Source: Halobacillus hunanensis
GTDB lineage: Bacteria > Bacillota > Bacilli > Bacillales > Halobacillaceae
Direction: 5' to 3'
NCBI RefSeq assembly: GCF_900166655.1
Contig: NZ_FVZB01000006.1
Location: 124,001-188,000 of the forward strand
Length of the DNA: 64,000 nucleotides
Below are positions 10,820 through 63,508 of the stretch, piece after piece. Under the pieces are notes generated by a model, which was not told where the DNA came from, did not search any database, and saw nothing but the letters and a program-made list of their open reading frames with translations. Positions within the stretch are counted from its first letter, which is position 1. Every line of letters begins with the position of its first letter. Made by a program: the position numbers and the translations under genes.

Positions 10820-10904
10820 GTTGAATAAATGAATTTTATAACCCTCAGCTTTAGTACAGCTTGGGGGTGGTAAAAGGAAGCACCTCTCAAGTCTATAATT
10901 GGTG

Positions 10905-11045
10905 CATATAAACCGCTACGAAAATATACTTCGCTTTCCGCGGGCGGCTGTTGAGCCTTCTTGTGCTGGCGCACTGCGAGGTCTCACCTAGGCCTTTCCT
11001 CCCGCAGGAGTCTCCGTATATTTTCTCCGCTAAAACAGCACATTG
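10905..11045. repeat. Dispersed palindromic repeat, copy A module 1
   Basis: This stretch is nearly identical to 58735-58870, and its ends match 28180-28225. Outer arms GAAAATATAC (10920-10929) and GTATATTTTC (11016-11025) are perfect inverted copies; further in, GCGGG pairs with CCCGC, and a central hairpin GTGC-TGGC-GCAC sits inside CCT...AGG arms. The whole can fold as one imperfect stem-loop of about 100 bases. It is followed by non-coding sequence with TTAGTCGAACTT- and TTAACCGAAC-like pieces that reappear near 28.3-28.4 kb. I see no gene from 10820 to 11524. Confidence 0.8.
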
Positions 11046-11342
11046 TTCGTCTTTTTACTTATGAGTTTTAGCTATGCCCCATCCGGTATTGACTCAGGGC
11101 GTGCCAAACTTAGTCGAACTTCCCTCCCCCGTACTTAACCGAACATCTTCTAATTTGTGAGCTTCCCATAGGAGTCTCGTTATTTCCCCCTCCCGCCTTT
11201 CTATAAAGCAAGAAGAAACGGCTCTCTATCACTGCAGATACACTCCATGGCCCTTGATGATGAGTATATCTGTTGAAGAAATTATTTACTAGCCTTTTAC
11301 AACTCGATTTTTATTAAGATGGTTCCGTTACTCTCAATAACG

Positions 11343-11470
11343 AAATGGGGATGGGAAACTGCGAGACTCCTACGGGAAAGGAAAGACTGGCGAGACCCCG
11401 GAGGTCGCAGACCGAGGAGTCTTGCCGTCTTCCCCGTGGAAAGCGAGTGGTTTCCCAACCCCCATTTTCC
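11343..11470. repeat. Dispersed palindromic repeat, copy A module 2
   Basis: A large imperfect palindrome. Outer arms AAATGGGGATGGGAAAC (11343-11359) and GGTTTCCCAACCCCCATTT (11449-11467) are inverted copies. The inside carries GCGAGACTCCTACGGG and CGAGGAGTC pieces; closely similar sequence occurs at 28583-28665, and AAAGCGAG-type ends recur at 28743 and 58983. This wording (GCGAGACTCCTGCGGG and its complement) resembles repeats I recall from many Bacillaceae genomes, but I could not confirm a named family. Confidence 0.75.
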
Positions 11471-11524
11471 AATTAAAAATACGGAACCTTACTCAGATGC
11501 CTGTCAGTCTTTAGTGTAAAAGAG

Positions 11525-12118
11525 CTATTGTGAATTTGACTCAAACAATTCATTTTGAAAGGTAAGTTGAACTTTGCGCCGTGCTTTCGGCTCGGGAATA
11601 CGGGCTGGGTATCCCAACTGTATGACACCTGCCACCTTATGAGATGTCGGGTCAAGGCCAATCCCTTTCATAAATTCAGTGTCATGAATATAAGGACTCG
11701 TGGTCCACAATGCGCCGACACCCCTCTCCCATGCAGCCAGTTGTGCATTCTGAATAAAGGCGCAAACCGCAGAATAATCCTCTTCAAACTTATGAATGTC
11801 AGGATCACGATCTAGATAAATTAAAGCATGGTGAGGGATGCGAATGAGGAATTGCTTTATTCCGTTCATCATCTTCTCCGCTTTCTCAGCAGAATATCCT
11901 TCGGCAAAGCCTTGCCTCAAATAACTTTCAATAACCAAATCGGCATAATGCTGTGCGCCCTCATTCTGATACACCACTACGTTCCAGGGTTCTTTTAAAC
12001 GATGATTTGGTGCCCAGCTGGCTATCTGAAAAACCTCCTGCAACACTGCTTCATCTACTAATTTATTTTTAAAGTCGTGAATCGACCGTCGAGATTGTAT
12101 AGCATCTATCACATTCAT
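11525..12118 (-). CDS. Nitroreductase-family protein
   Basis: A 197-residue flavin-dependent oxidoreductase of the nitroreductase fold. The N-terminal FMN-binding signature is AIQSRRSIHDFK, followed by FQIASWAPNHRLKEPWNVVVYQ. The central INAQ-type helix appears as CAFIQNAQLAAWERGVGALWTTSP, and the C-terminal VIQLGYPA segment is typical. The ATG at 12118 has GGCGGGG six bases upstream; a TTG one codon earlier is too close to that site. Substrate (nitro compound, quinone or flavin) cannot be deduced. It lies 14 bases after the ydcF-like gene, so the two may be co-transcribed. Confidence 0.85.
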   Translation of the reverse strand: MNVIDAIQSRRSIHDFKNKLVDEAVLQEVFQIASWAPNHRLKEPWNVVVYQNEGAQHYADLVIESYLRQGFAEGYSAEKAEKMMNGIKQFLIRIPHHALIYLDRDPDIHKFEEDYSAVCAFIQNAQLAAWERGVGALWTTSPYIHDTEFMKGIGLDPTSHKVAGVIQLGYPARIPEPKARRKVQLTFQNELFESNSQ

Positions 12119-28063: not shown

Positions 28064-28895
28064 TGAGTCAATTTCATAATGGTCTTACAAAAATAAAGAC
28101 TTTGGATGGGGAGAAGGTGGTCGTGGAAATAACTCGCTTTTCATGAGGTTAGAGCAAAAGTAAGATAATAACAATTGGTGCATATAAACCGCTGCGAAAA
28201 TATACTTCGCTAAAACAGCACATCGTTCGTCTGTTTACTTAAGAAGTCTAGTTTGTCCCATTATCGTTCGACGTTGGCACATGCCCTCGTGCGTAGTCGA
28301 GTAGTTCGGCCTTGAAACAGGACGTTTCGACTTTAGCCGAACTTCCTCTATCCCTTAAATTCCTTGAAGTCCAAAATTAACCGAACAACCTTTAACTCGC
28401 CAACCTTTCCGTAGAAATTCCGCAGTTACTATCCTCCATTTCGTTAATGCGAGCATCGGAGCCATCTAATAAAAAATGGAGTTGTAAAAAGGATAGGGGA
28501 TAGTTGCTTCAACGTATAAACTCACCCATTAATAGTCATAGAGTGTTTCTACAGTGACAAGGCCGTTCCTTCCCCCTTTTATAGAAAGGTGGAACAGGAA
28601 ATAGCGAGACTCCTGTGGGATTATAGTACAGGGTGAGGCCCCGCAGGCGAAGCCGAGGAGACTCACCGGTTAAAGGATGTTCGGTTAAGTTCGGCACGTC
28701 CTGTGCCAACATCGAACGACTCCACGTCGTGTGAGGCCGCGGAAAGCTAGTTATTTCCACGACCACCTTCTCCTCAACTAGATGATGGAACGTCTAAATT
28801 TAATAACAGTTATTTCGAATTTTCTCCCTGACTAGACTTGGTAAGTGATATCTTTCACTTTCCAATCCCCTTGCTGTGCAAAGGCTGAGAATGGA
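28064..28895. repeat. Dispersed palindromic element, copy B
   Basis: An 830-base non-coding block between yvcD and hisIE. It starts TGAGTCAATTTCATAATGG, the same 19 bases that open copy C at 58584. Arms at 28110-28140 and 28743-28773 are inverted copies over 31 bases with one mismatch; a second pair, CGTTCGACGTTGGCAC (28265-28280) and 28703-28718, is inverted with one mismatch. Inside lie a deleted form of module 1 (28180-28225) and a module 2 palindrome (28577-28680). Its last 120 bases align with 59013-59130. ORFs here only follow the palindromes. I see no gene from 27968 to 28970. Confidence 0.75.
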
Positions 28896-28934
28896 GTTAA
28901 AATAAACATTTTTTGAAGGGCATTATAAACAAAA

Positions 28935-58346: not shown

Positions 58347-58583
58347 CGTCTTACCCTTTCTCTATTGAAAATATATTGAGTAATAAATGTCCTATCTATC
58401 AAATCATATCATGAAACAGCCTGAAACAAGAGCACAATGTGTACACATCCCCATGAAATTTTTGTGAACGCGCTCCTTCTCTTAGCCTGTTGCTGAGAGA
58501 AAGCTGAAAAAAACTCTTACTTACACATACCTATTTACCCATTTATAAATGGTATCTTGTTTAGTCTCAAATGGAACAGGGAA

Positions 58584-59146
58584 TGAGTCAATTTCATAAT
58601 GGCCTTTTTATAAAAGATTAATACTGAAGATCACTTTCCATTCGTCTTGCTCAGCAAACAGCCTCGTTAATAGGTGGGAGAAGAGTGTTTTATCAAAAGA
58701 AAATCCGAACTAAGTAAAAACTAACGTGGGTGCAAAATAACCGCTACGAAAATATACTTCGCTTTCCGCGGGCGGCTGTTGAGCCTTCTTGTGCTAGCGC
58801 ACTTCGAGGTATCACCTAGGCCTTTCCTCCCGCAGGAGTCTGCGTATATTTTCTCCGCTCAAACAGCACATAGGTACGTTTTTCACTTAAGACGTTTAGT
58901 TATGTCTCTTCCTCATTTGGTGTAGGCACCTGTCCAATAGCGCCAAAACCGAACGACCCCCACATCCTGTGGGGCCACGGAAAGCGAGCTATTTCCTCGA
59001 CCACCTTCTTCTCATCAAGATGATGGAACGGCTGAATTTAAAAACAGTAATTTCAAAATGTCTATTTGTCTAGACTTGGGGAATGCCTCCTTTTTACCTA
59101 CCAAACCCCTTGTCGTACAAAGGCTGGGAATTATGAAATTGATTCA
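58584..59146. mobile_element. MITE-like element with terminal inverted repeats, copy C
   Basis: A 563-base non-coding block. The left end TGAGTCAATTTCATAAT (from 58584) is repeated inverted, with one mismatch and a few extra bases further in, at the right end (TTATGAAATTGATTCA to 59146, with AAAGGC/GCCTTT inside both ends). Inside are a full palindromic module 1 (58735-58870, nearly identical to 10905-11040) and a part of module 2 (58975-59015). No target duplication is evident, and no coding capacity is seen. I see nothing else in 58347-59176. Confidence 0.65.
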
Positions 59147-59176
59147 GATGCAAAGCTTGAAAGGAGCGAATTGTAA

Positions 59177-62180: not shown

Positions 62181-62606
62181 ATGTCCCCTATTATCTTTAC
62201 TGAATTCCAAAGGCAACAACTAGAATCCAATCCGAATGTCATGAAAGTATCCGACCGTTCCATTACGTATTCTCCAGATTTCAAATTAGCTGCCGTGAAG
62301 GAAAACTTAGCTGGAAAAGGCCCCCACCAGATCTTTACTGAAAAAGGTTTTGATATGGATATTATCGGCTCCAAGAAGCCTAAAGAGTGTTTAAAGCGTT
62401 GGCGGGAGACCTATGACAAGTATGGCAAAGATGGCTTCTACAAGGAACGTCGGGGAAAGGGATCCACAGGCCGTCCATCCACGAATCATTTATCTGCGGA
62501 GGATAAGCTGAAGAAGGCGGAAGCTCGCATTGCGTATTTAGAAGCTGAATTAGACTTCATAAAAAAGCTAGAGGAACTCGAAAGGCAGGCGAAGAAGAAA
62601 CGTTAA
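62181..62606 (+). CDS. IS3-family transposase OrfA
   Basis: A 141-residue DNA-binding part of the transposase. A helix-turn-helix (YSPDFKLAAVKENLAGKGPHQIFTEKGF ... CLKRWRETYDKYG) is followed by a leucine-zipper-like coiled coil (AEDKLKKAEARIAYLEAELDFIKKLEELERQ). Near its end the sequence A-AAA-AAG (62561-62567, in register) allows -1 frameshifting into orfB to give the OrfAB transposase; OrfA alone normally regulates. Confidence 0.92.
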   Translation: MSPIIFTEFQRQQLESNPNVMKVSDRSITYSPDFKLAAVKENLAGKGPHQIFTEKGFDMDIIGSKKPKECLKRWRETYDKYGKDGFYKERRGKGSTGRPSTNHLSAEDKLKKAEARIAYLEAELDFIKKLEELERQAKKKR

Positions 62607-63508
62607 CTCCATCTGAAAAATTCACATTGATTGAACAGGTTTTGCGGGAAAAAGGACTGAAGTATCTCATTCAATATTTCTGTGAAATCGCTGGTGTCAG
62701 CCGATCCGGTTACTATAACTGGTTAAAGGCAGAGGATACACGCCATCGTAAAGAACAGAAGGATGAGGCAGATTACAAGGTGATCAAGAAGGTATATGAT
62801 AACCATCAAGGAAAAGTAGGAGCCCTACAGATTAAGATGTTTTTAGAGCACGATGAAAGCATCACCATGAACCATAAGCGCATCCGTCGTGTCATGAAAA
62901 AATATAATCTCAAGTGTAAGATACGCGTGGCCAATCCATACAAACAAATCGCCAAAGCAACGCAAGAGCACAAAACCTGTGAAAATAAGCTGGAACGCCA
63001 CTTCAATCAGGGAGAGCCTCACAAAGTTCTCCTCACGGATATTACATACGTTTATTACGCGGAGGGACGCAAAGCTTATTTATCGGTCATCAAAGATGGA
63101 GCGACACGAGAAGCCCTGGCTTATCACCTTTCCACTTCTTTAAAGATGGATTTAGTGTACCAAACGATTGATAAATTGATGGAACGCGAGGACTTTATTC
63201 CTCATCCCGAATGTTTGATCCATTCTGATCAAGGCGTGCATTATACACACCCTGAATTCCGAAAGAAGATCAAAGCTTTAGGGATGAACCAATCGATGTC
63301 TCGTCGTGGAAACTGTTGGGACAACGCTCCGATGGAATCCTTTTTTGGACATATGAAGGATGGCATCGACTTTAAATCGTGCTCTTCCATATTTGAAGTC
63401 AAGGAAGCAATTCAAGGTTACATGGAGTATTACAACAATGAGAGATACCAATGGTCATTAAAAAAGATGACCCCGGCACAATACCGTGGTCACCTTTTAA
63501 CAGCCTAG
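62567..63508 (+). CDS. IS3-family transposase OrfB (catalytic, via -1 frameshift)
   Basis: The catalytic part of the transposase in the -1 frame relative to orfA. I give the frame from the slippery site; the first ATG is at 62627. An HTH_21-like segment (VSRSGYYNWLKAE; DNHQGKVGALQIKMFL) precedes the retroviral integrase-type core with the DDE residues in VLLTDITYVYYAEG, IHSDQGVHYTHPEF and RGNCWDNAPMESFFGHMK, ending YYNNERYQWSLKKMTPAQYR. All three acidic residues are present. Confidence 0.93.
   Translation, partial: ARGTRKAGEEETLTPSEKFTLIEQVLREKGLKYLIQYFCEIAGVSRSGYYNWLKAEDTRHRKEQKDEADYKVIKKVYDNHQGKVGALQIKMFLEHDESITMNHKRIRRVMKKYNLKCKIRVANPYKQIAKATQEHKTCENKLERHFNQGEPHKVLLTDITYVYYAEGRKAYLSVIKDGATREALAYHLSTSLKMDLVYQTIDKLMEREDFIPHPECLIHSDQGVHYTHPEFRKKIKALGMNQSMSRRGNCWDNAPMESFFGHMKDGIDFKSCSSIFEVKEAIQGYMEYYNNERYQWSLKKMTPAQYRGHLLTA

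Follow-up and report, generated by a model that had tools for sequence, protein, structure and literature searches.

Introduction

In the available excerpts of the papers cited here, the closest described relatives of the repeat reported below fall into three groups. Short elements with the ends of IS1182-family transposons are already on record, a table in PMC3852290 assigning IS1182-family MITEs of Methanosarcina acetivorans to ISMac2. In the same family, IS1272/TnSha1 targets DNA hairpins, terminators included, and IS1272 was reported to delete part of the stem and to leave no duplication (PMC4923244). Short interspersed repeats of related bacteria include bcr1–bcr18 of the Bacillus cereus group, for which a TTTAT motif and a recombination-like mechanism are described (PMC6542083), and the catalogued intergenic stem-loop families Bhal-1, Efa-1, and Sta-1 (PMC2267715). 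Bacillaceae-1 is tabulated as a candidate RNA of the Bacillaceae in PMC2864571, and no mention of its mobility was found in the accessible part of that source.

Here we describe a 563-bp repeat of Halobacillus hunanensis, located at positions 58584–59146 of the window (the whole stretch of 64,000 nucleotides that was analysed), which a preliminary description had read as a non-autonomous mobile element. A parent transposon with matching ends, further copies, and a sister species in which the site is empty bear out this reading: the repeat is very probably a MITE, a non-autonomous transposable element, belonging to an IS1182-family transposon, and this verdict places it firmly among elements of a known kind.

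Ends and parent transposon

The whole element, here called MITE-1, occupies 58584..59146 and is assigned to the minus strand, which is that of its parent IS, with the IS-left type of end at 59146. Its 17-nt terminal inverted repeats (TIRs) lie at 58584..58600 (+, parent right-end type) and 59130..59146 (−, parent left-end type), and are complementary at 16/17 positions (94%), just as the preliminary description had them. The interior was correctly called gene-free, no ORF of at least 80 aa being found within 58584–59146. Both ends correspond, in the TIR and in the subterminal sequence alike, to those of a ~1.56-kb transposon of the IS1182 family, of a type that occurs in Oceanobacillus, Virgibacillus, Brevibacillus, and others. 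The likeness extends inward, the right end of MITE-1 resembling the left end of the IS (AGCCCTTGT....CAAGGG, then AAAAAGGAAGCACCTCCCCAAATC) and its left end resembling the right end of the IS, inner sequence included. The AAAGGC/GCCTTT motifs noted earlier inside both ends are present; they lie in subterminal sequence, where each side resembles a different end of the parent, and do not make up one longer TIR. The left-end module (element positions 1–77; 58584..58660, +) is common to other MITE-1 copies and the right end of the parent IS. The right-end module (59071..59146, −), homologous to the left end of the parent IS, matches end model R2 with 61.3 bits, the window copy being itself one of the 19 sequences in that model.

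In the same genome, paired TIRs at C1:211752-212840 enclose a broken transposase, the only transposase found there between MITE-1-type ends. Against the IS1182 profile NF033551, both pieces of this transposase give matches (2.5e-33 and 6.5e-15) that stay under the cut-off. Searching with the larger piece yielded 24 related loci in the named genome collection. Both ends were placed in 19 of them, giving elements of 1553–1756 bp with ends such as TGAATGAATTTCATAATT ... AATTATGAAATTGACTCA; the remaining loci (L160, L168, L169, L172, and L176), in which both ends could not be placed, were left aside when ends and duplications were counted. NF033551 was run on two of the 24 relatives, the intact transposases of L153 and L159 scoring 299.7 and 281.5 bits against a cut-off of 270, and a DDE domain was found in that of L159. 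No close match to the transposase piece was present in the other 43 genomes of the family at E ≤ 1e-30. A full-length transposase sharing the ends of MITE-1, for which the preliminary description had recommended a search, is found intact in other genera, but the genome itself has a broken one only. Because this is the only copy found there, the window copy of MITE-1 is probably immobile now. Four other IS1182 end types of this genome were considered as parents (L110, L118, L140/L141, and L142) and rejected, none having TGARTCAATTTCATAAT ends; L112 of genome G010 has the L140 type of end.

Copies, empty site, and target duplication

The TIR pattern, allowing up to three mismatches, gave 101 matches (47+54) over the whole genome, versus 31 (17+14) for the pattern read backwards. 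The MITE-1 sequence gave at least 61 matches, itself included, with 40 of 98 first-look candidates scored. Copies with the same ends, which the preliminary description had advised looking for, were recovered by the IS-left/MITE-right end model in this genome (10 copies) and in G006 (12), G007 (9), G008 (22), and G018 (1); nothing was found in the other 39 of the 44 family genomes at E ≤ 1e-4, so that the MITE-1 end is patchy in its distribution (5/44). Short copies with paired ends, 403–838 bp long, occur in four genomes, and their interior is not of transposase origin. The phage collection searched contained no match.

MITE-1 lies in a divergent gene pair, flanked by a COX15-CtaA gene (PF02628) and a gene for a type II haloacid dehalogenase (TIGR01428; 169 bits, cut-off 125.4), the latter beginning 30 bp downstream of the element. 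The CtaA-like and dehalogenase genes adjoin in 11/11 genomes of the genus. The sister species G007 (locus L238) has the same gene pair without MITE-1, the CtaA-like and dehalogenase proteins of the two genomes matching at 97% and 87%. When 563 bp plus 2 bp are removed from our sequence, it aligns with that of G007 without a gap across the junction, over ~50 nt; an empty site of the kind that the preliminary description had advised looking for therefore exists, with its boundary at the proposed ends. A search up to 1500 bp from the dehalogenase gene revealed neither a TIR (up to three mismatches) nor an end match in any of the 10 other genomes of the genus; weak core hairpin matches (see below) were seen within this distance in G001 (L242). 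The AAAGGAGCGAA stretch of the dehalogenase gene is identical to that at the empty site, and its spacing from the start codon is changed by a single base. Elsewhere in the window, an IS3-family transposase pair is encoded at 62181–63508, its first and second ORFs scoring 25.2 and 286 bits with NF033516 (cut-off 160).

The AA at 58582..58583 and the GA at 59147..59148 are the presumed left and right copies of a 2-bp target duplication that differ by one base, a reading based on the empty-site comparison and on family statistics. Among 31 parent and MITE copies (19 with transposase and 12 own or short), the 2 bp beside both ends agree in 19, compared with a mean of 3.05 and a maximum of 9 in 2000 trials with shuffled partners; the own or short set contributes 7 of its 12. 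Duplications of 1, 3, and 4 bp showed nothing comparable in these copies, and 12 of the 31 have no 2-bp duplication. The earlier remark that no target duplication could be seen stands for the window copy, which is imperfect (AA/GA), but not for the family, where the 2-bp duplication is apparent, nor for the empty-site comparison, which fits a duplication of 2 bp.

Nested interior

When copies of the inner palindrome were set out with their flanks, a separate MITE with ends GAGGCTGGGACAAAAGT ... TTAGTTATGTCCCAGCCTC emerged (MITE-2, TIR type GAGGCTGGGACA). In the window element MITE-2 occupies 58672..58914 (+, left boundary approximate) and has worn TIRs of this type. The genome contains about 30 copies of its left part, nine left ends adjoining another such repeat by eye and the others not. 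It also contains three copies of an IS1182-family element with MITE-2-type ends GGGGCTGGGACATAACTA and GAGGGTGGGACAAAACCC, scoring 440.6 bits each; the two that were compared base by base are identical over 1849 bp. In the window element, MITE-2 is followed by a remnant of a Bacillaceae-1 (RF01690)-like module (58924..58974, +; boundaries by eye), which is below the Rfam threshold and assigned because element positions 359–404 overlap the places of intact RF01690 matches, and by the right arm of MITE-1's own palindrome (58975..59016, +; boundaries by eye, compared with L037 and other copies), the left arm of which is missing. In several other copies, MITE-2 or Bacillaceae-1 starts directly after CGCTTTCCRYGRGG in the arm of another palindrome; these, like the composites of MITE-1 with MITE-2, may go back to a small number of events and were not counted as independent. 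A multi-copy MITE-2 subfamily, seen at nine loci, has no core hairpin, as if it had been deleted between short CGCT repeats (by eye). The suggestion that the element had picked up, or was made of, a structured repeat was sound, its interior being a nested second MITE with a hairpin widespread in the class.

That hairpin, the core, lies inside MITE-2 at 58743..58855 (+) and matches model R1 with 112 bits, being itself one of the 43 sequences in the model. The alignment comprises 43 copies from 11 genomes, which were kept by a stricter pattern from 74 script-cut candidates, some of them false; the pattern also lost real cores (L214–L216, L219, L224, and one of L218). Of 33 pairs, 24 have changed on both sides. 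Pairing holds in 92.1% of cells compared with 75.6% after shuffling, and the covariation score of 0.441 (shuffled, 0.148) was reached in 0/500 shuffles, the structure having been derived from the same 43 sequences and therefore being favoured by these scores. Slid structures were at most 56.8% paired, with a covariation of 0.121. The core model matches 83/299 genomes of the class, which its named relatives indicate to be Bacilli, and 26/119 genera (E ≤ 1e-5, up to 12 places scored per genome). Among 11 MITE-1 copies searched, eight have the whole core, six of these being in the model, two have none, and one has part of it.

By eye, at least six types of outer end were distinguished among the repeats that contain the core, namely GAGGCTGGGACA, CAGACTGT(A/T)GACAAAC, GAGGCCACTGAAAAA, GGCTGTTTTCG, GGCTCTGTTAAA, and TGARTCAATTTCATAAT. 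An IS1182-family transposase was found between ends of the TGARTCAATTTCATAAT, GAGGCTGGGACA, and GAGGCCACTGAAAAA types, and for the CAGACTGTAGACAAAC type only one end was seen beside an IS1182-family transposase gene. No transposase was found for the remaining types; the GGCTNTGTTAAA ends of G040 gave five loose matches with a badly spaced pattern, which were not used. BLAST placed the core in three plasmid records, all from Priestia megaterium. In the window, no Rfam family matches the core above threshold. Weak Rfam matches, to tsr24 and a snoRNA, were noted in L003 and L187, the former RNA (RF02577, from S. aureus) matching the core-bearing MITE at L187:532-754 with 25 bits against a threshold of 50. 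In G033 (L187 and L190–L195), two copies of a whole terminator-like hairpin flank MITEs with CAGACTGTTGACAAAC-type ends (by eye). Our literature search, largely confined to journals open without subscription, found no account of a shared core hairpin; no paper was found on GAGACTCCTGCGGG, and among the matches listed for GGCTGGGACA none concerned bacterial repeats by title.

A further module of these palindromes is the Bacillaceae-1 RNA of Rfam. RF01690 has no match above the gathering threshold in 58584–59146; it has two matches in the window, at 28.3 and 28.7 kb, and 43 in the genome, 40 of them above threshold. Inspection of 30 contexts by eye placed five in the 16S rRNA leader, seven inside palindromes like those of MITE-1 and MITE-2, and nine apparently nested in one another, at a similar hairpin position. 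The five leader copies, ~30 nt upstream of a 16S rRNA gene, are unlike the palindrome copies and are perhaps an older form.

Two further stretches of the window belong to the same family. The left end of MITE-1 recurs at 28064, as claimed, with 22/23 bases the same, and 28064–28907 (right edge approximate) is a MITE-1 copy with an intact left end and a worn right end, containing a short MITE-2 and the two RF01690 matches in opposite orientation. The palindrome twin reported at 10.9 kb was likewise confirmed (89% match over 185 nt). The surrounding 10827–11543 is a further worn MITE-1 copy, with an end-model match at 10827–10892 (25.6 bits), a TIR-like ATTGTGAATTTGACTCA at 11527–11543, and two core hairpins at 10915–11027 (+) and 11350–11462 (−).

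Hairpin targeting

Elements with GAGGCCACTGAAAAA ends were found in 31/150 genomes of the order. We compiled 30 distinct GAGGCCACTGAAAAA sites with both ends, following the order in which the search listed them and including loci retrieved for other purposes; G033 is over-represented among them. Sites less than 70 nt from a locus edge (e.g., L343), the outer members of nested pairs, and sites repeating the left flank of one already in the set (e.g., L384 and L387) were dropped. Direct repeats of at least 7 bp are present at 23/30 sites; shuffled partners gave 0.87 on average and never more than 4. By the site table, 23/30 insertions fall within the apical loop of a fold with an energy of −9 kcal/mol or lower, versus 386/3000 random positions of these loci in a separate control; a laxer loop criterion weakens the contrast (25/30 sites versus 929/1500 random positions). 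The core hairpin, assigned by a regular expression, is the site of 14 of the 30 elements, and 11 of the other 16 sites are terminator-like by eye; L348, the core of which was recognized by eye, is not among the 14. An internal core is present at 18 of the 24 GAGGCCACTGAAAAA loci searched (17 with at least 69 bits and one with 38.6), and the six without it include the elements of up to 140 bp. Since 14/30 insertions are in the core and 18/24 elements carry the core, the same hairpin is both cargo and target.

Discussion

We conclude that MITE-1 very probably owes its presence to a transposon of the IS1182 family, and its movement may be pictured as the work of a DDE transposase supplied in trans and using the 17-bp TIRs. 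Certain transposases of the IS1182 family insert into hairpins, which these MITEs contain, and the interior of MITE-1 may for this reason have been built up layer by layer, with the hairpin as both cargo and landing pad.

A very unlikely alternative is that the locus is a structured RNA gene or leader like Bacillaceae-1, in which the repeated ends are incidental. RF01690 is a small RNA in Rfam with two matches in the window and five copies just upstream of 16S rRNA genes, and the core hairpin shows strong covariation. Against this, selection on a DNA hairpin would produce covariation as well, RF01690 stays below threshold in MITE-1, promoter-like sites around MITE-1 are no commoner than in shuffled sequence (2 versus a mean of 2.0), and the ends are those of a transposon absent from the site in relatives. 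That the element is instead a worn IS remnant, which never moved as a short unit, seems highly implausible: the genome does hold a decayed IS copy with the same ends, but the short copies have paired ends in four genomes and interiors not derived from a transposase, and the duplications in the own or short set contradict this view. BIMEs are multi-copy intergenic palindromes made of modules, and the present repeats are like them in this. That they are REP/BIME-type palindromes moved by a Y1 (RAYT) transposase, with incidental TIRs, is nevertheless barely credible, given that a parent sharing both ends encodes a DDE transposase and that the family shows a 2-bp duplication.

The core hairpin itself could also be the mobile unit, in which case it would move to hairpin tips irrespective of their sequence and be carried by the MITEs. 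We consider this unlikely. In G201, an 82-nt core with 90–94% identity sits on self-pairing stems of differing sequence, all nine outer-stem pairs are changed on both sides, and the core occurs with at least six outer-end types; compensatory drift and capture by insertions on both sides would, however, fit these observations as well, and the coreless MITE-2 subfamily looks, by eye, like a product of deletion between the CGCT repeats.

With MITE-1 taken as an IS1182-family MITE, the core hairpin may be viewed as a landing pad that builds nests, and targeting of hairpins would explain why the repeats are layered and why different end types have the core in common. In a fuller version, which is tentative and somewhat less likely than not, the core would be a self-made landing pad into which hairpin-seeking IS1182-type transposases insert repeatedly, giving nesting instead of hits in genes; the core would then be recaptured by new pairs of ends, and Bacillaceae-1 RNA would serve as a second nesting module. 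These observations connect IS1182-type transposition with the palindromes found between genes in Bacillus-group genomes and with a family listed in Rfam as a "small RNA". They offer a simple rule for mosaic repeats, by which elements carrying hairpins attract elements seeking hairpins, and they caution against taking covariation in repeats of this kind as proof of a functional RNA.

Compared with the systems introduced above, as described in the excerpts at hand, MITE-1 resembles bcr1–bcr18 as a short interspersed repeat with mobile features in a related group, a comparison by description only (PMC6542083); Bhal-1, Efa-1, and Sta-1, compared in the same way, may overlap with the core hairpin (PMC2267715). 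Like Bacillaceae-1 RNA (RF01690; PMC2864571), the module recognized here forms part of many palindromes of the genome and left a worn remnant in MITE-1; unlike the accessible entry in that source, it occurs both in 16S leaders and inside nested palindromes. The GAGGCCACTGAAAAA subgroup belongs to the same IS1182 family as IS1272 (PMC4923244) and, like it, inserts in hairpins, but has direct repeats of 7–13 bp, and the MITE-1 family shows 2-bp duplications. The duplications of the MITE-1 subgroup also look unlike those of the hairpin-loop GAGGCCACTGAAAAA subgroup. Like the ISMac2 MITEs (PMC3852290), MITE-1 is short and has the ends of an IS1182-family transposon; unlike them, it contains a nested second MITE and a hairpin common to other end types, and the duplication of its family is 2 bp.
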